Shown here piece by piece: positions 29,395 through 41,065 of a DNA stretch of 64,000 bases. Each line of letters opens with the position of its first letter. Positions within the stretch are counted from its first letter, which is position 1. The position numbers were made by a program, and so were the translations under genes. The notes beneath the pieces were generated by a model that ran no database searches, was not told the origin of the DNA, and saw nothing but the letters and a program-made list of their open reading frames with translations. The stretch is from Herbidospora daliensis (GTDB lineage: Bacteria > Actinomycetota > Actinomycetes > Streptosporangiales > Streptosporangiaceae), in the NCBI RefSeq assembly GCF_001570585.1, contig NZ_BBXF01000002.1, forward strand, positions 1,314,077-1,378,076, read 5' to 3'.

Positions 29395-29649
29395 TCAGTA
29401 GTGGTAGCGGGCTTGGAGGATGACCAGTTCGTCGTCGAGCGGGAGATAGACGAGGCGGTGCTCATCGGTGATCCGCCGCGACCAGGCCCCTTGCAGGGCG
29501 TGCTTCAGCGGTTCGGGCTTGCCGATGCCGGCGTAGGGATCACGCAGGGTGTCTTCGATGAGCTTGTTGATCCGTTTGAGGATCTGCCGGTCGGTCGACA
29601 ACCAGGAGGTGTAGTCCTCCCAGCCCTCAGGGGTGAAGGAGAGCTTCAT
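29395..29649 (-). CDS. Txe/YoeB family mRNA-interferase toxin
   Basis: 84 residues, the family's usual length. Conserved RelE-fold features are present: WEDYTSWLSTDRQILKRINK at the N-terminus, GKPEPLKH with the catalytic Glu, WSRRI with Arg, LVYLPLDD, and the terminal ARYHY with the catalytic His. Ribosome-dependent RNase that cuts mRNA. It overlaps the antitoxin stop by ATGA. Confidence 0.92.
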   Translation of the reverse strand: MKLSFTPEGWEDYTSWLSTDRQILKRINKLIEDTLRDPYAGIGKPEPLKHALQGAWSRRITDEHRLVYLPLDDELVILQARYHY

Positions 29650-29906
29650 TCGTGGTCGTCTGCGTCGATCAGCTCATGAATCTCGTGACGGCCTTCGAGG
29701 GCCTTCTGGTAGGAGGAGATGAGCCGCCGCATGTTGGCGGGGGAGCGCAACAGGTAGGCCGTCTCCCTCAGCGCTTCGTATTCGGCCGCCGGAACCAGGT
29801 AGGCGCGGTTGCTCTTGGAGACGATCTCCACGGCCGCGCTGTCCTCGTTCACCTCGTCGATCAGGGGAAACAGCCGGCGCCGTGCCTCACTTGCGGTAAT
29901 CGACAT
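29646..29906 (-). CDS. YefM/Phd family antitoxin
   Basis: 86 residues from ATG 29906 with GGAGGT 6 bp upstream. N-terminal Phd fold [20 protein letters not shown] and [19 protein letters not shown] are family landmarks; the acidic C-terminus ([13 protein letters not shown]) would wrap the toxin. Its start lies inside the last 20 bp of the hxlR-type gene upstream, so it may be read both from that operon and from its own promoter at the palindrome 29924-29945. Confidence 0.92.
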
Positions 29907-30432
29907 CGGGAACCTCCGCCTCGGTGGTACCAAATACGGTACCACTCGGGCTCGTTGCTTCGTAGCGGCGGCGCATGATCGGCCCCGCCGCCGGGCCCGC
30001 GGTGAAGACGTGGTCGTCGCCGTCGGCTCGGGCGCCCGTGGTGGCGTCGACCACGACCGGGTCGGCCTCCCGGCCCGTGCGGCGGTCGACGAGGATCATC
30101 GCGCGGTCGTCGGGGGCGAGCTGGGAGTTGCGCCAGGCGGCCATCGCGACCAGGACCGGGCGCAACGAGCGGCCCAGATCGGTCAGGACGTACTCGTGGC
30201 GGACCGGGCGGTCCTGGTAGGGGCGGCGGGCCAGGATGCCCCTGTCGACCAGGGTCTTCAGGCGGCTGGTCAGCATGCTCGACGACAGGCCGATGTTGGC
30301 CTGGAAGTCGTCGAAGCGGGTGTAGCCGTCGAAGCAGTCGTGCAGGATCAGCACCGTCCACCACTCGCCGACGATGCTCATCGTGGCCGACAGCGGGCAC
30401 TCGCGGTCTTCCAGCCGGATCTTGCTGACCAT
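29887..30432 (-). CDS. HxlR family transcriptional regulator
   Basis: 181 residues from ATG 30432 after GAGGAG. Winged HTH typical of Hxl[21 protein letters not shown] with the N-terminal Cys, then [20 protein letters not shown] and [22 protein letters not shown]-terminal extension of about 60 residues carries the antitoxin operator in its coding sequence. Divergent from an SDR gene that it probably controls. Confidence 0.9.
29924..29945 (-). promoter_or_regulatory. Palindrome, likely toxin-antitoxin operator
   Basis: GTGGTACC-N6-GGTACCAC, a perfect 8-bp inverted repeat 18-39 bp upstream of the antitoxin start, inside the 3' end of the hxlR-type gene. Position and symmetry fit autorepression by a Phd/YefM dimer. 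Confidence 0.65.
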
Positions 30433-32416: not shown

Positions 32417-34153
32417 TCAACGTTTTATCTCGCGCATTTGAGAATGAATCGATGCGCATGATTGGTCGCGGTGCTGCCAGCGCGGCACCGGGCGGAGCCG
32501 GGTCAGCACCAGCGCCACCGCCGCGGCCATGACCGGCACGCACATCGCGGTGAGCCAGTTCGTCATCGCCAGGTGCCTGACCGTCTCGACCCGGCCGTGC
32601 ACGAGCACGACCACGGCGAACTGGGCCAGCGCGGCCAGCGGCAGGAAGACCGCCAGGCGGCCGAGCGTCTTCTCCGACGGGGTCAGCGAGCGGCGGCGCA
32701 CCACCAGCCACCCGGCCCCGGCCGTGGCGGCCCAGAGCACCAGCACCAGCAGCGGGCCCCGGCGGAAGACCTCCCAGATGGCCGAGTAGACGGCCACCCG
32801 GTACTCGCGCTCGCCCTCCGGCTTGCCCGCGCCCTCGGGATAGGAGCCCAGGTAGTGGGGGCGCAGCCCGGCCACGCCCTGGAAACCCCATCCGACGGTA
32901 CGGACGGCGTGCCACGGATGCGTCGCGTAGAACCCGGCGATCCGGAGCGGCGAGGGGTGGGCGGTGCGGTGGTAGCGGTCGGCGAACGTCACCCACGACG
33001 GGTCGTCGCGGGACAGGCCGGCGGCGGGGGCGAGCTCCGGGTCGAGGCCCAGCGAGGCCAGGTCGGCGGCGGCCGTCGGGTCGTCGTACAGGATGGTCTG
33101 GAAGACGGCCTGGTGGTCGTCGAACTTCGCCTCGGTGACGGCGTGGAAGACGCCGAGCCCGGCGATCCACGTGGCGACCATCAGCGCCACGACGCGGCGG
33201 CCGCGCATCCAGAGCAGCGCGAAGGCGAGCACGGGCACGAACGTCACGTACTCCGGCCGCGCGCCGACCACCAGCAGCGCCGGGACCGCCGTCGCCAGCG
33301 CCCTCGGCACCGTCGGCCGCTCCCAGAGCAGCAGCAGCGCCACCACGAGGAACCCGGCCGCCACGAGCGCGGTCGGCTCGGCGTAGGGCGAGACGAGGTA
33401 GCCGGCGAACCCGGCGTCGGCGTAGACGAGCCCGACCGCCGAGGCGAACCCCACCCGGACCAGCGGCCGCCCCGGCGTGACCGCCACCAGCAACCCGCAG
33501 ACCACGCCGACGAGCAGCCCGAACAGCACCCCGAGCGCCCGCAGGTCGAGCGCGCCGGGGAAGCCGAGCAGCGGCGTCAGCCACTTCCCGGCCGCCTGCG
33601 CGAACAGGGCCGTGGAGAACTCCGGCGGGCAGTTCTCACCCGTCCACGCGTGCGCGGTCCAGATCGGCTGTACGTGCTCCCATCCGGCCCGCGCGGGATC
33701 ACGGAAGTTGGCCAGCCCGAGCCGGCACGGCAGGTTCTCCCCGAACCCGGCAAGCCCGACATGCCCCCCGAGGAACAACCGCACCTGCATGACGGCCGCC
33801 CACACAACCCCGACCACCACCGCCACCAGCGGAAACCGCCGAACCCCGCCCCACCGGGAACCAGGTGCCATCCAGGTCCGCGAGGGCGGCCCCGCCTCAG
33901 AATGAGAACCGGGCCGAGCGTCGCGGCCGGAACCAAGTAGATCGCGTGTCCCGGAGCTGAGACCGGAGCCAAAGCCGGAGCCGGGACCCGAGCCGGAGCC
34001 GGGACCGGGCGGTGGTTTGCGGCGCGAGGTCTTCGCGCGGAGTCTCCGCAGGAGGCCCGTCCCGGCAGACCACTGCCACCAGCGGCGCTTCGGCTTCGGT
34101 TTCTCGGGGAACCGGTCGCCCCAGGACACGGGGTCCTTCTGGTCGAGGGTCAT
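32417..34153 (-). CDS. Polytopic membrane protein, GT-C-like, unknown
   Basis: 578 residues from ATG 34153 after GGGGAGAG. A cytoplasmic N-terminus of about 115 residues contains a Gly-Ser-Pro low-complexity linker, followed by roughly ten membrane helices and large loops (WTAHAWTGENCPPEFS is extracytoplasmic in the likely topology). The layout recalls GT-C glycosyltransferases, but I see no certain DD/DE site. Overlaps the septum-formation lipoprotein gene by ATGA, so they form an operon. Lies at the left flank of the exosortase locus. Function open. Confidence 0.65.
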   Translation of the reverse strand: MTLDQKDPVSWGDRFPEKPKPKRRWWQWSAGTGLLRRLRAKTSRRKPPPGPGSGSGPGSGFGSGLSSGTRDLLGSGRDARPGSHSEAGPPSRTWMAPGSRWGGVRRFPLVAVVVGVVWAAVMQVRLFLGGHVGLAGFGENLPCRLGLANFRDPARAGWEHVQPIWTAHAWTGENCPPEFSTALFAQAAGKWLTPLLGFPGALDLRALGVLFGLLVGVVCGLLVAVTPGRPLVRVGFASAVGLVYADAGFAGYLVSPYAEPTALVAAGFLVVALLLLWERPTVPRALATAVPALLVVGARPEYVTFVPVLAFALLWMRGRRVVALMVATWIAGLGVFHAVTEAKFDDHQAVFQTILYDDPTAAADLASLGLDPELAPAAGLSRDDPSWVTFADRYHRTAHPSPLRIAGFYATHPWHAVRTVGWGFQGVAGLRPHYLGSYPEGAGKPEGEREYRVAVYSAIWEVFRRGPLLVLVLWAATAGAGWLVVRRRSLTPSEKTLGRLAVFLPLAALAQFAVVVLVHGRVETVRHLAMTNWLTAMCVPVMAAAVALVLTRLRPVPRWQHRDQSCASIHSQMREIKR

Positions 34154-34866
34154 GCGGCTCTCCCCTCGCGCAGGGTGCCGACCGTGATGCGGTGGCGTTC
34201 CTGGCCGACCCAGCACGATCGGTCGGGGCCGAGGCGGATGCGCAGGCCCCTCAGGCGGCCCGCGAACATGGCCGCGTTGGCGCGGCAGCCGTTCCTGGTC
34301 AGGCCCTGGGGTTCGACCCACTCCCACTCGTGCGGGAGGGCGCACTGGACGTCGCGGCCTTCCAGGTTGCAGCGGCGGATGGCGGCCGACTCCGGGCGGT
34401 TCATGATGCCGCGCAGCGGGGCGGTCAGGACCGGGCCGTTGTTCGGGTGGGTGGTCGGGACCAGCAGGTCGCAGCGGAGGGTGCGGTCGCCGGCGGCCCA
34501 CTCGTCGGGGGTCGGGACCTTGCCCCAGACGGAGACGCCCCACTGGGCGTCGTGCGGGCCGGCCGCGAGGTAGGGGCGGATCGGGCGGTAGTCGCAGCCG
34601 GCCGTGACCATCGGGACCAGCAGTTCGTGCGGCGGGCGGACCGGGGTGTCGGTCATCGGGCCGGTCAGCTGGGTGACCAGGTAGGTCTCCGTCTGGTGCG
34701 GCTGGGTGCACGGGACGGGTGGCCGGACGTCGCTGAGGGCGTACAACTCCTCGGGCTGGGACATCACGTGGCAGCTGCCGACCGGCATGGCCGCGCTCGG
34801 GTGCGTGGTCGCCGGGGCGGCGCACGCCGTCGCCGAAAGGAGCAGTAGCGCCAGGGTCTTGCCCAC
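34150..34866 (-). CDS. Secreted/lipoprotein with septum-formation-like domain
   Basis: 238 residues from GTG 34866 after GAGGAGG. Signal region LALLLLSATACAAP has an imperfect lipobox. The mature part shows VGSCHVMSQPEELYAL, VPCTQPHQTE and several paired Cys, resembling the actinobacterial septum_form domain (PF13845). Extracytoplasmic, disulfide-containing. Cotranscribed with the membrane protein downstream; divergent from the exosortase gene. Confidence 0.7.
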   Translation of the reverse strand: MGKTLALLLLSATACAAPATTHPSAAMPVGSCHVMSQPEELYALSDVRPPVPCTQPHQTETYLVTQLTGPMTDTPVRPPHELLVPMVTAGCDYRPIRPYLAAGPHDAQWGVSVWGKVPTPDEWAAGDRTLRCDLLVPTTHPNNGPVLTAPLRGIMNRPESAAIRRCNLEGRDVQCALPHEWEWVEPQGLTRNGCRANAAMFAGRLRGLRIRLGPDRSCWVGQERHRITVGTLREGRAA

Positions 34867-35036: not shown

Positions 35037-35540
35037 ATGGCCGTTCGGGTGGCCCTTTCGGGGGTGCTGGGGGCGCTGCTCCTGGCGGTGCTGCTGGTGG
35101 ACGACCGGGTGCGCGGCTGGGAGGCGGTGCTGGCCTCCCACGTGGTCGCGCTGGTGGCGCGGACCGAGACGGCGGTCAACTCGGTGATGGCGATCATGTC
35201 GTTCAACGAGGAGACCGGGGACGCGGTCGGGTTGCGGATCTCGCCCGAGTGCACGTCGGGGTTCCTCATCGTGCCGCTGCTCGGGATCACGATCCTGATC
35301 CTCTGGTTGTCGCGCCGGGCCAGCCTGTGGCCGCTGGTCGCGCTGGCCGTCGCCGTCACGGTGCTGTTCGCGAGCAACCAGGTGCGCATCCTCGCCGTCG
35401 TGGTGCTGATCAAGGGGCTGGGCTTCGAGCCCGGCTACTACTGGGGGCACACCATGGTCGGCTCGGTGATCAGCGTGTTCGGCATCGGGGCGGCGCTGGT
35501 GGCGTACACGCTGCTGACGATGCGGGGGGTGCGGCGCTGA
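35037..35540 (+). CDS. Exosortase/archaeosortase-family transpeptidase, compact form
   Basis: 167 residues, about four to five membrane helices. The three family residues line up: Cys72 in SPECTSGF, Arg117 in NQVRI and His138 in YWGHTMVG. Exosortases cut C-terminal sorting signals of secreted proteins at the membrane. RBS AGAGGGGGGAAC, start ATG 35037. The next gene, a GT2 synthase, overlaps its stop by one base, as in exosortase G-type systems of Gram-positives. The nearby choice-of-anchor P protein is the likely substrate. I do not assign a subtype letter. Confidence 0.85.
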   Translation: MAVRVALSGVLGALLLAVLLVDDRVRGWEAVLASHVVALVARTETAVNSVMAIMSFNEETGDAVGLRISPECTSGFLIVPLLGITILILWLSRRASLWPLVALAVAVTVLFASNQVRILAVVVLIKGLGFEPGYYWGHTMVGSVISVFGIGAALVAYTLLTMRGVRR

Positions 35541-36907
35541 TGGGTTACCTGCTCGGGCTGACCCAGGCGTTCGCGCTCTTCCTCAGTGTCACCTTCCTCA
35601 CCTACGTGCTGACGATCGTGCGGCCGTATCTGCGGCAGCGGCCCGACCCGGCCGGGAACCCGGCGGCGTTCGAGTGGCACCTGTTCATCCCGTGCCGCGA
35701 CGAGGCGGCCGTCATCGGGCCGACCCTGCATTACCTGCGCGAACGGTTCTCGCACGTCAACGTGTGGGTGGTCGACGACGCCTCCGACGACGACACGGCC
35801 CGCATCGTGGCCGGGACAGCCCGCGACGACGCCCGGATCCACCTGGTGACGCGCGTGCGCCCGGAGGCGCGGACCGGCAAGGGCGACGCCCTGAACGCCG
35901 CCTACCGCGCGCTCGACGACTTCCTCCCGCCCGACGCCGACCGGACCCGGCACGTGGTCTGCGTCCTGGACGCCGACGGGCGGCCCGCCCCGAACATGCT
36001 GAGCGTGTGCGCGGGCGAGAAGCTGTTCGCCGACCCGGCGATCGGGGCGGTCCAGATCGACGTGTGGATGATCAACCGCGACGACCGCGATCCGTGCCCG
36101 GAGCGGGGCCGGTTCCGCAACGCGTTCGGGCGGCTGCTGGTCCGCATGCAGGACCTGGAGTTCCGCGGCCCGATCTCGGCGATCCAGCTGGGCCGCAGGC
36201 GCAGCGGCACGGTCGCGATGGGCGGCAACGGCCAGCTCACCCGGCTGAGCGCGCTCGACAAGATCGCGGGCGCGGAGAAGCGGCCGTGGGGCGGCTCGCT
36301 GCTGGAGGACTTCGAGCTCGGCGTGCAGCTGCTGCTGGCGGGGGAGCGCAACGAGTACACCCCCGACACGTGGGTCGAGCAGGAGGGCCTCTGGTCGTTC
36401 CGGCGGCTCATCACCCAGCGCACCCGCTGGGGGCAGGGCACCATGCAGTGCGCCAAGTACCTGCCGGAGATCTGGCGGTCGGCCCGGTTCAGCAGCCTCG
36501 GCGCGCTGGAGGTGCTCTACTACCTGTCGCAACCGTGGATGCAGCTGCTCGGCACGCTCATCTACCCGATCCCGATGATCTATCTGGGCGGCCGGCTGAT
36601 CGCCGACCCGGCCGGGATGACGTGGTGGCTGGTCGAGGGCGGCTGGATCCTCTTCGCCATCTACGCCACCTTCGGCCTGCTGCCCTTTCTCATCTGGGGG
36701 CCGCTTTACTGGTGGCGCTGCGAACCTCGGGTCGGGCTCGGCAGAAGCCTGCTCTACGGGTTCGCCTACGCGTTCTACATTTACAATTTCTATCTCACGT
36801 CGTGGCGCGCCTTCGGGCGGATCATTCGCGGCCGGAGCGGCTGGGCGAAAACCCGGAGAAACGCCGAGACCCATGTCGCGGGCACGCCCGTGGCCCGGGA
36901 AATGTGA
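35540..36907 (+). CDS. GT2 processive-type glycosyltransferase of the exosortase locus
   Basis: 455 residues. N-terminal helix, then a GT-A domain with DDASDDDTA (79-86), DxD at D144-D146 in LDADGRP, E256-D257 in LLEDFELG and QRTRW at 293-297, the QxxRW motif of processive beta-glycan synthases. Three to four C-terminal helices follow. It should transfer sugars from a nucleotide donor at the inner face of the membrane. Coupled to the exosortase (TGATG). Its acceptor may be a lipid, a growing polymer or a sorted protein (inference). The donor could come from the epimerase opposite. Confidence 0.85.
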   Translation: MGYLLGLTQAFALFLSVTFLTYVLTIVRPYLRQRPDPAGNPAAFEWHLFIPCRDEAAVIGPTLHYLRERFSHVNVWVVDDASDDDTARIVAGTARDDARIHLVTRVRPEARTGKGDALNAAYRALDDFLPPDADRTRHVVCVLDADGRPAPNMLSVCAGEKLFADPAIGAVQIDVWMINRDDRDPCPERGRFRNAFGRLLVRMQDLEFRGPISAIQLGRRRSGTVAMGGNGQLTRLSALDKIAGAEKRPWGGSLLEDFELGVQLLLAGERNEYTPDTWVEQEGLWSFRRLITQRTRWGQGTMQCAKYLPEIWRSARFSSLGALEVLYYLSQPWMQLLGTLIYPIPMIYLGGRLIADPAGMTWWLVEGGWILFAIYATFGLLPFLIWGPLYWWRCEPRVGLGRSLLYGFAYAFYIYNFYLTSWRAFGRIIRGRSGWAKTRRNAETHVAGTPVAREM

Positions 36908-36918
36908 ATCCCGGGCCA
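36891..36918. terminator. Hairpin between convergent operons
   Basis: TGGCCCGGGA and its exact complement flank an 8-nt loop that contains the GT2 stop codon; TTTC follows. It can end transcription from both sides of the exosortase locus. Confidence 0.6.
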
Positions 36919-36927
36919 TTTCGGCGG

Positions 36928-37083
36928 CTATCGCACCTTGTGCATTCTGAACAGCAGCGCGCCGCCCACGATGAGCACGGCGGCCAGCGCGATGATCACG
37001 GCCAGGGGAATTCCGGTAAACGGCAGGACGGCCAACGGGACGCCGGTCTGCCAGCGGGGGCCGTGCCCCCAGGATCCGTACAC
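36928..37083 (-). CDS. 51-residue LPFTG mini-protein (stand-alone sorting signal)
   Basis: Start GTG 37083, with GAGGTG that overlaps the epimerase stop as its ribosome site. 51 residues: a 19-residue head (VYGSWGHGPRWQTGVPLAV), LPFTG at 20-24, a membrane helix at about 26-45 and a basic tail RMHKVR. This is a complete LPxTG-type cell-wall sorting signal with almost no cargo and no N-terminal signal peptide. Third gene of the response regulator-epimerase operon. No sortase gene is in the window, so the processing enzyme could be a housekeeping sortase or the exosortase opposite. Function unknown. Confidence 0.75.
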   Translation of the reverse strand: MYGSWGHGPRWQTGVPLAVLPFTGIPLAVIIALAAVLIVGGALLFRMHKVR

Positions 37084-37092
37084 AATGACACC

Positions 37093-38169
37093 TCAGTTCT
37101 CGGAATGGATGAGTTCGGCGCATGCCCTGGCCACGCGGGCGGCGGCGTGGCCGTCGCCGTAGTGGCAGGGGGCGACGTGTCTGACCCGGCCGGCCACGGC
37201 CGACTGGAGGAACAGGCCGGCGGTCTTGGCGACCAGCTCTTCGTCGGTGCCGACCAGGTGGGCCCCGCCGTCGTCGAGGGCCTCGACGCGTTCGGTCGAC
37301 TCGCGCATGACCAGCACCGGCAGGCCGAGCGCGGCGGCCTCCTCCTGGATGCCGCCCGAGTCGGTGATCGCCAGCGCGCTCACGGCCAGCAGGCAGGCGA
37401 ACTCCCGGTAGGGCAGCGGCGGCACGCACCGGATGTTCGGCCGGGGTTGCACGACCTGGTCGAACACCTGGCGTACCGCCGGGTTGAGATGGGTGGCGAC
37501 GACGAAGTCGACGCCCGGGTGGTCGGTGGCGAGCCGGTCGGCGACGCGGGCGACGCGGCGCATCGGCTCACCCCACGACTCGCGCCGGTGCGCGGTGATC
37601 ACCACCAGCGGCCGGTCGCGGGGCGCGGGCCGGTCGGCCAGCACGGCGGCCAGCGCGTCGACCACCGTGTTCCCGGTGACCAGCACCCGGTCGGCCGGGA
37701 TGCGCTCGGCCAGCAGGTTGGCGCGGGCCGAGGCGGTCGGCGCGAGGTGCAGGTCGGCCAGCGGCGCGATCAGCCGCCGGTTGGCCTCCTCGGGGAACGG
37801 GGTGGCCCGGTGGCTGCGCAGCCCGGCCTCGACGTGGGCGACCGGAACCTGCCGCAGATACGCCGCCAGCGCGCCACCGAACGCCGACGCCGTGTCGCCC
37901 TGGACGACCACCAGATCGGGCCTGAGCTGCCCGAACACCTCGTCGAGCCCGAGCACCACCGCCGCGGTCAGCCCGGCCAGCGTGGCCCCCGACCGGGCCA
38001 GCACCCGGTCGGCGCGGGCGCCGAACAGCGCCAGCACCTCGGCCACGACCTCGCCGTGCTGCCCGGTGCACACCACGTCGACCTCGGCGAAGGCCCGCAG
38101 CGCCGGGATCACCGGCCCGAGCTTGATCGCCTCGGGGCGGGTGCCGACCACCACGCAGACCCGCTTCAC
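37093..38169 (-). CDS. wecB: UDP-N-acetylglucosamine 2-epimerase, non-hydrolysing
   Basis: 358 residues. GTRPEAIKLGPVIPAL at the N-terminus, HVEAGLRSH, VTGNTVVDAL and SGGIQEEAAALGLPVLVMR are the conserved family blocks. It interconverts UDP-GlcNAc and UDP-ManNAc in the cytoplasm. ATGA overlap with the response regulator gene and coupling to the LPFTG mini-protein put it in one operon, which suggests that UDP-ManNAc feeds glycan made by the facing GT2 enzyme (inference). Confidence 0.93.
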   Translation of the reverse strand: MKRVCVVVGTRPEAIKLGPVIPALRAFAEVDVVCTGQHGEVVAEVLALFGARADRVLARSGATLAGLTAAVVLGLDEVFGQLRPDLVVVQGDTASAFGGALAAYLRQVPVAHVEAGLRSHRATPFPEEANRRLIAPLADLHLAPTASARANLLAERIPADRVLVTGNTVVDALAAVLADRPAPRDRPLVVITAHRRESWGEPMRRVARVADRLATDHPGVDFVVATHLNPAVRQVFDQVVQPRPNIRCVPPLPYREFACLLAVSALAITDSGGIQEEAAALGLPVLVMRESTERVEALDDGGAHLVGTDEELVAKTAGLFLQSAVAGRVRHVAPCHYGDGHAAARVARACAELIHSEN

Positions 38170-38825
38170 CAGCCGCTGCCGGTCCGCGCGTCGCCGAGCA
38201 CGACCGCGATGGCGTGCGCCCGGTCACGCGCGCCGATCTTGCGCAGGATCGACTTGACGTGGGTCTTCACGGTCTCGTGGGCGATGCACAACCGCCTGGC
38301 GATGGCCCGGTTGTCGAGGCCCAGGATGATCTCCTCCAGCACCTCGTGCTCGCGCGGGCTGAGGTCGAACCGGGTGCGGTGGCCCGCGCGCCCGGCGGCC
38401 GACCGGCCGAGCCGGTCGTCGGCGATGACCTGGCCCTCGGCCACCCGTTCGAGGTGGAACAGCAGGTCCTCCAGCGGCGAGGACTTCAGCAGGTACGCAT
38501 GGGCGCCCGCGTCGAGCGCCGCGCGGGCCAGGTTGACGTCGTCGACCGAGGTGAGCACGACCGGGATCACGCCCGGATGCTCCAGGCTGATCCAGCGGCA
38601 CAATTCGAGGCCGCAGTCGTCGCCGATCCGGGTCTCGCACATCACGATTTCCGGCATAAGCCGTGAAATCATCCGGCGGCCTTCCGCTCCCGTCGTGGCG
38701 GAACCGGCGACCGTGAATGCGGGGGCCTGCCGGAAAAGGGCGCGCAATGCGAGATGCGCGAGCGGGCCTTCGTCGACCACGACGATCTGGCACGTTTCCC
38801 GGCGGACGGCTCCGCGTGTCAGCAT
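38166..38825 (-). CDS. NarL/LuxR-type response regulator with atypical receiver
   Basis: 219 residues, ATG after AGGAG. Receiver domain at 12-130 and C-terminal LuxR HTH (LSPREHEVLEEIILGLDNRA, then HETVKTHVKSILRKIGA). The usual phospho-acceptor Asp (in DVRMPGMDG of relatives) is Glu64 in MCETRIGDDCG, and the conserved Pro is Gly. The Thr and Lys of the receiver remain. No sensor kinase is adjacent. Likely phosphorylation-independent or constitutively active regulator of the locus, with the anchor P gene diverging from it. Confidence 0.85.
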   Translation of the reverse strand: MLTRGAVRRETCQIVVVDEGPLAHLALRALFRQAPAFTVAGSATTGAEGRRMISRLMPEIVMCETRIGDDCGLELCRWISLEHPGVIPVVLTSVDDVNLARAALDAGAHAYLLKSSPLEDLLFHLERVAEGQVIADDRLGRSAAGRAGHRTRFDLSPREHEVLEEIILGLDNRAIARRLCIAHETVKTHVKSILRKIGARDRAHAIAVVLGDARTGSGW

Positions 38826-38994
38826 TTCGGCTCCTGTTCTTCGACGCTCAATGTAACGAGCGAATCGAGCCGTTTAGGGGCCGCAACACTAACTCTCTGG
38901 AGTGAACTGACAGGTCCCTTACCGTTTCCCACTCGGCGCACGCCTAACTTGGAGCGACATCGACTTATATAGGAAGCCCGCGGAGGGCCTGCAT
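38826..38994. promoter_or_regulatory. Divergent promoter region of the exosortase locus
   Basis: 169 bp between the response regulator and the anchor P gene, clearly richer in A and T than its surroundings. TATATA at 38966-38971 may be a -10 for the anchor P gene; no -35 at a standard distance is obvious. A good RBS (GGAGGG) precedes ATG 38995. Confidence 0.5.
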
Positions 38995-39711
38995 ATGTTT
39001 CTCGGACGTACTTTCGCCGTTTCCCTGGCAGCGATGACCACGCTGCTCATGGGGATGGTGAGCACCTCCCACGCGCGAAGCGACGGCGTCAACGCCTACG
39101 GCGCGTCGATCAGCCTGCCGCTGGGCATCGGCTTCGGCCCCGCGCCGGTCGCCGACCTCGGCAACCCGACCGCGACGCTGGCCTCGATCACCGTCGGGAC
39201 CGTGTCGACCGGCGCGGTCAGCGCCGAGGTCGAGCAGAACACCACCGTCGGCACCGAGGCGGCGCGCGCGTCGGTCGACGGCCTGAGCGCGACCCTGCTC
39301 GGCATCGGCTTCAGCGCGGGCACCATCCAGTCGGAGTGCACCGCGACCACCGGCCTGCCCACGACCGGTTCGACGCTGCTGGCCAACGCCCAGGTCCTCG
39401 GCACCACGCTGACGAACAACCCGGCCCCGAACACCACGCTCCTGTTCCCGCCGCTGCTGCCGCTCATCGAGGTCCGCCTCAACGAGCAGATCAGCAACCC
39501 CGACGGGAGCCTGACCGTGCACGGCATGCGCGTGCGCGCGCTGGCGGGGGTCGGCGACGTCATCCTGAGCTCGTCGACCTGCGGCCCGGCCACCCTCGAC
39601 CCGCCGAACCCGGTGCCGCTGGCCTCGGGCGCCGGCCTCTACCTGGCCCTCGGCCTCGCCGCCGCCGGCGGCGGCACGCTGCTGATGCGCCGCCGCCGTC
39701 AGTTCGGCTGA
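38995..39711 (+). CDS. Secreted choice-of-anchor P family protein, probable exosortase substrate
   Basis: 238 residues. Signal peptide with cleavage near TSHA-RS (about residue 27). The mature part is Thr/Ser/Ala-rich beta-type sequence with two Cys (SECTATTG and SSTCGPAT) that may pair. The end is a three-part sorting signal: PVPLASG (206-212), membrane helix (about 213-230) and RRRR (232-235). This matches the choice-of-anchor P family of actinobacteria. Position beside the exosortase supports cleavage at the PVPLASG motif. Confidence 0.85.
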   Translation: MFLGRTFAVSLAAMTTLLMGMVSTSHARSDGVNAYGASISLPLGIGFGPAPVADLGNPTATLASITVGTVSTGAVSAEVEQNTTVGTEAARASVDGLSATLLGIGFSAGTIQSECTATTGLPTTGSTLLANAQVLGTTLTNNPAPNTTLLFPPLLPLIEVRLNEQISNPDGSLTVHGMRVRALAGVGDVILSSSTCGPATLDPPNPVPLASGAGLYLALGLAAAGGGTLLMRRRRQFG

Positions 39712-39718
39712 TCGAACG

Positions 39719-39749
39719 GAAGGGGCGCCCTGACCGGGCGCCCCTTTTT
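39719..39749. terminator. Bidirectional terminator
   Basis: AGGGGCGCCC and its perfect complement around loop TGACC, followed by TTTTTC on the plus strand and led by AAGG on the other; it separates the anchor P gene from the convergent glycosyltransferase gene. Confidence 0.9.
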
Positions 39750-41065
39750 CATTTCCGCACGTAGAGGGCGAACCAGGAGTAGCCGAAGTCCTTGAAGTAG
39801 CGGGCCCGGTAGTGCTTCTGCAGGTCGAGGTAGGCCGGGTCGGTCTCGACGAAGGCGCTGTTCTGGTGCTTGCGCCCGCCGGACACCACCCAGACCCGCT
39901 CGTCGTCGCCGGTCGGCGGGCTCAGTCTCCGGTACGGCTCCGCGTACACCCCCGCGAACCACTCATACGTGGGATCCACGTACAGCACCCGGTCGCCCGG
40001 CTTCACCCGTTCGAGCAGGGCGGCGGCCATCGACCGCAGGTCGTCGGGCCGGTGGTCGGGCGCCCTGAGCCATAGGTGCTTGGGCACCGTCAGCGCCACC
40101 AGCAGCGCCAGCGCGATCCAGGTCAGCGGCCTCGGCCGCAGCCGGTCGAGCCCGGCCCCCGCCAGCAGCGCCAGCCCGGGAAGCGCGAACAGCACGTAGC
40201 GGGGGCTGTAGATCGGATAGACCAGCGAGACCAGCATCGACAGCGGGATCAGCAGCGCCCACGCGCCGGCGACCCGGCCCAGCGCGCCGCGCGCCCCGAA
40301 CGCGGCCAGCCCCAGCAGCGGCACGATCGCCCACCTGCTGCCCATCACCTCCTGGGCCAGCGTCGGCAGCGCCGCCCACGTAGGCGGATTCAGCCACCCG
40401 AGCTGCACGCCCCGCTGCCCCGCCGCCAGCACCGCCAGCGGCGCCAATCCCGCGGCCGCGATCAGCATCGCCTGGACGAACCGCCGCCGGTCGGGCGCGA
40501 CGAACACGTGCGCCACCACCAGCAGCAGCCCGTAGACGTGCGACCACCCCAGCAGCACGATCACGACCGCGTAGAGCACGTGGTGCCGCCGGGTCACCAG
40601 CAACCAGGTCGCCAGCACCGCCAGCGCGGTCACGATGGCGTACGACCGGACCTCCTGCGCGTAGCGGCTCACCATCGGCAGCGCCGCGAAGACCAGCCCG
40701 GCCAGCAGGCCGACCCGGGCCGTGGCGAGGTGGCGGCCGATCGCGGCGATCCCGTAGGCCGCGGCGGCCATGGCCAGCACCGAGGGCAGCCGGAGGGCGA
40801 GCTCCGACGTGGAGAGCCACGCCACCGGCCGCAGCAGCAGGTAGTAGAGGGCGTGCACGCGGTCCATGTGGCCGAGCAGGTCCCACAGTTCGCCGATCGG
40901 GCGGGAGGCGGCCAGCGCGGAGACCGACTCGTCGCGCCAGAACGACGGCACCCAGACGTTCCACAGTCCGGCGAGCAGGGCGACGACGCCGGCCGTCGCC
41001 TCGGCGCGCCGCCTGGTCAGCGGCGTGACCGGCGTGTCGGTCAGGGCCATCGTCATGGCGCCCAT
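39749..41065 (-). CDS. GT-C membrane mannosyltransferase-like protein (GT39/PMT-like)
   Basis: 438 residues with about eleven membrane helices. The first outside loop has SFWRDESVSALAA, the Asp-Glu active-site pattern of GT-C enzymes that use polyprenyl-phosphate sugars, then MDRVHALYYLLL and RLPSVLA, typical of ArnT/PMT-like families. The C-terminus is a soluble tail. Acts outside the membrane, transferring a sugar to protein or glycan. Right flank of the exosortase locus; divergent from the methyltransferase. Confidence 0.8.
   Translation of the reverse strand: MGAMTMALTDTPVTPLTRRRAEATAGVVALLAGLWNVWVPSFWRDESVSALAASRPIGELWDLLGHMDRVHALYYLLLRPVAWLSTSELALRLPSVLAMAAAAYGIAAIGRHLATARVGLLAGLVFAALPMVSRYAQEVRSYAIVTALAVLATWLLVTRRHHVLYAVVIVLLGWSHVYGLLLVVAHVFVAPDRRRFVQAMLIAAAGLAPLAVLAAGQRGVQLGWLNPPTWAALPTLAQEVMGSRWAIVPLLGLAAFGARGALGRVAGAWALLIPLSMLVSLVYPIYSPRYVLFALPGLALLAGAGLDRLRPRPLTWIALALLVALTVPKHLWLRAPDHRPDDLRSMAAALLERVKPGDRVLYVDPTYEWFAGVYAEPYRRLSPPTGDDERVWVVSGGRKHQNSAFVETDPAYLDLQKHYRARYFKDFGYSWFALYVRK

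Follow-up and report, generated by a model that had tools for sequence, protein, structure and literature searches.

The stretch of DNA analysed here, 64,000 nucleotides of Herbidospora daliensis (NZ_BBXF01000002.1, positions 1,314,077 to 1,378,076; hereafter the window), belongs to a genome of 8.5 Mb (G000) and contains an exosortase gene that adjoins the gene of a glycosyltransferase family 2 (GT2) polysaccharide synthase. Close by are genes for a tiny LPFTG protein, a UDP-N-acetylglucosamine (UDP-GlcNAc) 2-epimerase, a response regulator and a secreted choice-of-anchor P protein (CoaP). Judging from sequence comparison, we consider it about an even chance (probability roughly 0.5) that they form a dedicated exosortase system, in which one enzyme serves one substrate and is tied to a polysaccharide synthase. 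What comparison among genomes shows are the parts and their linkage, a CoaP dedicated to the system, a single case of shared loss and two gene fusions seen once each.

Conservation of the exosortase locus

Linkage was evaluated over 21 exosortase loci, namely the window, 11 loci of named relatives, L098 (genome G501), L126-L132 and L117 (G036). Eight of the named loci were taken as the same records as L026-L033 and each was counted once. Exosortases were sought with XrtP-like models only, and more distant ones without GT2 could exist. A GT2 gene adjoins the exosortase gene in 20 of the 21 loci, the same 20 contain a tiny LxxTG protein, and an epimerase gene lies within 2 kb in 17; the lone exosortase copy of G036 has neither GT2 nor tiny protein. 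Among the 11 named loci, exosortase, GT2, tiny protein and regulator occur in all, epimerase and CoaP in 10 each, and two further genes, Septum_form-like and WsfD-like (see below), in nine. Eight exosortase loci lie outside the family (L098 and L126-L132); GT2 and tiny protein are present in 8/8 and an epimerase within 2 kb in 6/8. Since seven of these (L126-L132) were found by means of the exosortase alone, their neighbouring genes constitute an independent result.

The A1 profile identified an exosortase in 10 of 120 family genomes, nine with strong scores of at least 281 bits and the tenth, G036, with 62 bits. GT2 exceeded its cut-off in 10 of the 120 as well, including all nine genomes with a strong exosortase; three further GT2 matches scored 77-85 bits. 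Fisher values were set aside because they take no account of relatedness. Beyond the family the enzyme is rare: at E ≤ 1e-8 it was detected in 2/396 genomes of the phylum, 1/198 of the class of G501 and 9/394 of the window's class, counts that include the window's genome and G501.

Exosortase and its predicted substrate

The exosortase scored 31.1 bits against the superfamily model TIGR04178 (NCBIfam, cut-off 23) and 115.7 bits against XrtP (NF012139), the best-scoring exosortase model, whose cut-off of 200 was not reached; with 22.8 it also stayed under the Pfam gathering score of PF09721 (25.7). The original prediction had proposed a hidden Markov model (HMM) search against exosortase subtypes and named lack of any family match as one of its refutations; the family match is present, the XrtP subtype is missed. 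Since the six scanned Streptosporangiaceae exosortases (the window's and five from other genera) all score below the XrtP cut-off, at 108.0-126.5 bits, we read them as what looks like a divergent branch near XrtP. XrtP members over 200 bits were found in 0/396, 0/198 and 0/394 of the phylum and class genomes mentioned above. Residues C72, R117 and H138 are invariant in exosortase alignments of nine and 12 rows, and the corresponding Cys, Arg and His were seen in 17/17 when distinct synthase-linked exosortases were aligned. Among named exosortases, those of Herbidospora species are the nearest (88-98% identity). A search of the exosortase profile against the sequences of solved structures gave nothing at E ≤ 1.

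CoaP passes the cut-offs of both choice_anch_P (NF040603; 76.6 bits, cut-off 27) and the C-terminal signal model CoaP_CTERM (NF053845; 42.8 bits, cut-off 35), its C-terminal end being NPVPLASGAGLYLALGLAAAGGGTLLMRRRRQFG. Among 14 chosen genomes, the signal occurs over the cut-off exactly once, always in the locus, in eight of the nine with a strong exosortase, and in none of the other five, including G501 with its distant exosortase. Among 91 family genomes it exceeds the cut-off in eight, which are seven of the eight with a strong exosortase and one of the 83 others (G027). At most 150 (14 genomes) or 74 (91 genomes) candidates per genome were scored in these searches and weak members may be missed. 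By comparison, this distribution supports the earlier pairing of anchor P protein and exosortase. In G027 (L163 7144-11026) the N-terminal half of CoaP is missing; the locus still has the regulator gene and the Septum_form-like and WsfD-like genes, and exosortase, GT2, tiny protein and epimerase were not found in the 18 kb fetched. The second choice-of-anchor P protein of the window's genome (L045 9328-10995; C2:807354-807884) ends without a C-terminal signal. Outside the family, a choice-of-anchor P protein adjoins GT2 in L098 and L126 (38.1 and 49.9 bits), and secreted proteins of other kinds that end in a helix and a basic tail are encoded in L129 (three), L131 and L132. The structure predicted for CoaP from 11 sequences is beta-rich, with a mean predicted local distance difference test (pLDDT) of 78.9, and matches no solved structure at E ≤ 0.001.

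Synthase, epimerase and gene fusions

The GT2 scores 692.6 bits against NF053846, the XrtP-associated glycosyltransferase (cut-off 520), and the motifs DxD, ED and Q-R-x-R-W are kept in 34/34 GT2s; of ten phylum GT2 loci, two (L065, L067) were left out of the comparison. Against the sequences of solved structures nothing was found at E ≤ 0.01. On the GT2 tree the label "exosortase" needs three changes, compared with a mean of 11.7 upon shuffling. Exosortase-linked GT2s form two groups, the first of which also includes L034 (no exosortase), a history made uncertain by long branches and midpoint rooting.

The epimerase passes the cut-off of TIGR00236 (wecB; 327 bits, cut-off 210.15). Of the 17 GT2 loci that have no exosortase, 13 likewise contain an epimerase at most about 2 kb from GT2. 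A second wecB-type gene resides elsewhere in eight of the nine genomes with a strong exosortase; Sinosporangium album has a single one, outside the locus, and in G704, G809 and G783 the locus copy is the only one. This proximity and these copy numbers point to UDP-N-acetylmannosamine (UDP-ManNAc) as the probable GT2 donor. In L128 a single frame of 930 aa comprises GT2 (48-437, 345.4 bits) and epimerase (516-886, 474.7 bits), which fits a synthase that uses UDP-ManNAc. The second fusion, in L132, is a 233-aa frame with the tiny protein (14-49, 18.3 bits) followed by the exosortase (67-221, 34.5 bits), the latter with XrtS as nearest NCBIfam model (75.6 bits). As regards the earlier claim of coupling to a ManNAc-related glycan, what comparison bears out is that exosortase and GT2 are tightly linked across loci, and the glycan gains plausibility from the locus epimerase, which comes on top of another wecB-type copy in 8/9 strong-exosortase genomes, and from the single GT2-epimerase fusion.

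Other neighbours were seen near GT2s of loci without exosortase. In L099 (2206-4653) and L102 (9229-11652), genes for similar secreted proteins accompany those of GT2, epimerase and tiny protein; the L099 protein has a GH26 (mannanase family) domain, and the GT2 of both loci is fused to a long N-terminal part. A 3-keto-disaccharide hydrolase domain (L035 5598-6302 and relatives) is encoded near GT2 in eight such loci.

Proposed mechanism

We infer topology, cleavage, sugar identity and the role of the tiny protein as follows. CoaP would leave the cytoplasm through Sec and stay anchored in the membrane through its C-terminal helix and RRRR tail. Cutting near PLASG would proceed by way of an acyl-enzyme on Cys (C72, together with R117 and H138), from which the exosortase would pass the new C-terminus of CoaP to a nucleophile. 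The locus epimerase would supply UDP-ManNAc, from which the GT2 would polymerise a ManNAc-containing glycan across the membrane. The tiny MY...LxxTG protein may be a membrane subunit of the synthase that also touches the exosortase, by which glycan and CoaP would be placed side by side. In this way CoaP would either be attached to the glycan or hold it at the surface of this single-membrane bacterium. That the exosortase cleaves CoaP is a prediction in which we are rather confident; covalent coupling of CoaP to the glycan is putative, at slightly under even odds. The most far-reaching version appears improbable: the tiny protein would serve as a docking subunit between the exosortase and a synthase of ManNAc polymer, such that CoaP is moved directly onto the emerging polysaccharide. 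The result would be a machine that couples protein covalently to exopolysaccharide in a bacterium with a single membrane, and it would rest on a wider GT2/epimerase/tiny-protein module of several actinobacterial groups.

According to the accessible parts of the papers concerned, each exosortase-type enzyme may add a new moiety of some kind where it cuts (PMC11980579), and hormogonia of a cyanoexosortase mutant showed impaired adherence to their polysaccharide, covalent protein-polysaccharide linkage being named as a possibility only (PMC12188702). The strongest alternative, which we regard as possible but would bet against, is that the exosortase, having cut CoaP, joins it to a lipid or some other small nucleophile. 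In that case the glycan made by GT2 would be a neighbouring product, bound non-covalently by CoaP, and linkage would reflect shared regulation or location. The literature, as far as accessible, provides precedent: with archaeosortase A the outcome is attachment of a lipid (PMC9263693), which means that a glycan nucleophile cannot be taken for granted, and disruption of Methylobacillus EpsH left polysaccharide production unaffected (PMC1569441). Moreover, GT2 with tiny protein or epimerase also occurs without exosortase. However, the adjacency of exosortase and GT2 in nearly all loci, across several families, and the single tiny protein-exosortase fusion suggest a closer coupling.

Besides these two precedents, several observations weigh against the dedicated, synthase-tied system. 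G073, the tenth family genome with GT2 over the cut-off, has an adjoining epimerase and no exosortase was found in it. S. album (L030/L052) has retained exosortase, GT2, tiny protein and regulator; its CoaP is gone, its epimerase is a remnant, and its exosortase scores 22.9 against TIGR04178, slightly under the cut-off. The lone exosortase of G036 (L117 1084-2046) has Asn instead of His, and there is no GT2 on its 4.7-kb contig. L098 and L127 are without a nearby epimerase, the genomes carrying one at about 80 kb (G501) and 13 kb (G888). No convincing substrate was found near the exosortases of L127, L128 and L130 (one flagged frame each in L127 and L128, none in L130), and the motif scan found no tiny protein in eight of the 17 GT2 loci without exosortase. 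Each fusion is a single case from a fragmented assembly (G704, 110 contigs; G783, 180 contigs and 68% complete). The exosortase structure prediction, from 12 sequences, is of low confidence (mean pLDDT 68.5), and the model matched no solved structure at E ≤ 0.001.

The tiny LxxTG protein

In an alignment of 17 copies, a Tyr near the start is present in at least 90%, L and G of L-x-x-T-G are invariant, T is present in at least 90%, the helix contains a Gly and basic residues follow it in most copies. A strict motif, written after copies had been seen, matched exactly once in the 64-kb window and once each in 23 of 36 other loci (L026-L033, L035-L041, L098, L099, L102, L126-L128, L130, L131), always within 1 kb of a GT2 reading frame as judged by coordinates. 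It was absent from the other 13 (L034, L042-L045, L100, L101, L103-L106, L129 with the variant LLFNG, and L132 with the fusion) and from the reversed sequence of all 36 loci (560,765 bases). The tiny protein was detected with a previously built profile in six of the seven class loci, and in L126 via an anchor heuristic and the motif scan. A search with the A3 alignment gave matches in 57/120 genomes; it is partly circular, as its rows came from GT2 and exosortase neighbourhoods, and the weaker matches are mostly in long open frames. The weight is therefore placed on the motif scan and on the seven class loci. Three matches to sequences of solved structures (E 0.2-0.94) were taken as chance.

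The tiny protein might instead be an ordinary substrate of a sortase, or of the exosortase, that is cut between T and G, leaving a short wall-linked peptide, perhaps a glycan anchor. We consider this unlikely, despite its tripartite arrangement of motif, helix and basic tail and the L[PA]xTG form of most exosortase-linked copies. Several copies have LAXTG_small_WW as nearest NCBIfam family (L128 40.1 bits, cut-off 65), and three (L102, L128, L130) barely pass the cut-off of TIGR01167; for the window's copy no TIGR01167 match is listed at E ≤ 1, and LPXTG_double reaches 14.6 versus 48. By eye, however, it has no separate N-terminal signal peptide, in the L102 copy the predicted cut comes after no more than nine residues, and one copy is fused to an exosortase. 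The tiny protein also stands beside nine of the 17 GT2s without exosortase (L035-L041, L099, L102), where seven of nine copies lack the LPxTG proline while helix and neighbourhood are kept. Because of the missing proline and the short L102 copy we favour, with moderate confidence, a synthase subunit over sortase cargo; the L[PA]xTG of most exosortase-linked copies speaks for some recognition role. The mini-protein of the original prediction is present; that it is ordinary sortase cargo is improbable.

Gene order, additional genes and regulation

The features are listed in Table 1. The original description of the exosortase and its three residues, the GT2 with QRTRW directly after it, the three genes on the opposite strand and the secreted protein with its terminal signal was accurate throughout.

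Table 1. Features of the exosortase locus (positions in the window)
Feature	Coordinates	Strand	Remarks
WsfD-like hexose transferase (glycan biosynthesis)	32417..34153	-	NF051875 274.3 bits, cut-off 80
Septum_form-domain protein	34150..34866	-	co-occurs with exosortase
Exosortase, XrtP-like, under XrtP cut-off	35037..35540	+	167 aa; C72/R117/H138
GT2 membrane polysaccharide synthase, XrtP-associated glycosyltransferase family	35540..36907	+	DxD, ED, QRTRW
Tiny protein, 51 aa, single transmembrane helix	36928..37083	-	MY...LPFTG-helix-R; conserved partner of GT2 and exosortase
Non-hydrolysing UDP-GlcNAc 2-epimerase (WecB/MnaA type)	37093..38169	-	TIGR00236 327 bits
NarL/LuxR-type response regulator	38166..38825	-	Glu in place of usual phospho-acceptor Asp
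CoaP, secreted choice-of-anchor P protein, predicted substrate	38995..39711	+	HMM matches
CoaP C-terminal sorting signal, PVPLASG-helix-RRRR	39610..39708	+	CoaP_CTERM 42.8 bits, residues 206-236

The last base of the exosortase stop codon is the first base of the GT2 ATG, and the regulator and epimerase frames overlap by four bases, as expected of coupled genes. The WsfD-like start likewise overlaps the Septum_form-like stop by four bases. These two genes belong to the set and had been overlooked in the original description, whose six genes are confirmed. The Septum_form-like gene occurs in nine of 120 family genomes, namely eight of the nine with a strong exosortase and G027. In G051 it sits elsewhere in the genome, again with a WsfD-like gene. 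The two are linked in L127 and L164. In L127, from another family, a single strand carries exosortase, tiny protein, GT2, Septum_form-like and WsfD-like genes one after another.

In the window and in 10 of 11 named relatives, Glu occupies the position of the regulator that usually carries the phospho-acceptor Asp; L053 keeps Asp (hand-made yardstick alignment). A regulator of this kind may not depend on a kinase. The longest word common to the two divergent intergenic stretches, a candidate shared operator, has eight bases and was taken as chance.

Fourteen flanking genes were tested within about 8 kb (one query was read from a wrong start and contained stops): 12 occurred in at least one Herbidospora locus, two in none, and none in the five other-genus loci. 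A PMT-like gene (39749-41065) is likewise present only in the six Herbidospora loci among the 11 named. The co-occurrence count called for originally gave all six genes in 10 of the 11 named loci and four in the eleventh, and since the tested flanking genes were found, within about 8 kb, only in Herbidospora the grouping is not by chance. That the two opposite-strand groups are merely neighbours, kept by the general gene order of the family, is very improbable: they do form convergent and divergent units rather than one operon, but the five loci from other genera lack the tested flanking genes within about 8 kb, exosortase, tiny protein, GT2 and epimerase are grouped in differing orders in other families, and G051 retains the Septum_form-like and WsfD-like genes though unlinked. 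As a separate observation, a YoeB-like toxin and Phd/YefM-type antitoxin pair (29395-29945) is present in just two of six fetched Herbidospora loci.

Comparison with known systems

The partnership of exosortase, GT2 and CoaP is already known as annotation in NCBIfam; new are the two extra genes, the wider module, both fusions, the case of shared loss and the changed reading of the tiny protein. Literature searches found no paper that names exosortase P, none on a Herbidospora exosortase and none that joins LAXTG with exosortase; searches on actinobacterial exosortases, choice-of-anchor and CTERM signals gave no paper that, by its listing, describes such a system. The earlier statement that no characterised example is known agrees with these searches, although NCBIfam already names the exosortase type and the GT2 and CoaP signal families. 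The locus could help to reveal what exosortases join to the proteins they cut. One enzyme, one substrate, one synthase and one sugar-supply gene occur together in a soil actinobacterium from a group with named strains, which makes the question experimentally approachable, and the tiny protein is a tangible starting point for asking how exosortase and synthase may be connected.

LAXTG_small_WW (NF058583) resembles the locus as the family nearest to several tiny proteins (L128 40.1, L130 37.7 bits), but 0/13 scanned tiny proteins reach its 65-bit cut-off and no match is listed for the window's copy. Archaeosortase A (ArtA) of Haloferax volcanii requires Cys/Arg/Arg (PMC9263693, accessible part), comparable to the conserved Cys/Arg/His here; it differs in leading to lipid attachment, and the accessible part names no synthase partner. 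The NCBIfam XrtP set (NF012139, NF053846, NF053845, NF040603) is closest in content, since GT2, CoaP domain and CoaP signal of the window pass its cut-offs. It differs in the exosortase (115.7 versus 200 bits), and none of its model names refers to a tiny protein, an epimerase, a regulator or a Septum_form-like or WsfD-like partner. The Gram-negative PEP-CTERM/exosortase systems (EpsH, CrtB) share an exosortase beside glycan-synthesis genes and substrates with a C-terminal helix and basic tail, as far as the accessible parts of PMC1569441 and PMC12188702 describe them. In contrast, the host here is an actinobacterium, the exosortase has 167 aa versus at least eight predicted helices in EpsH, and a single substrate takes the place of the usual many.

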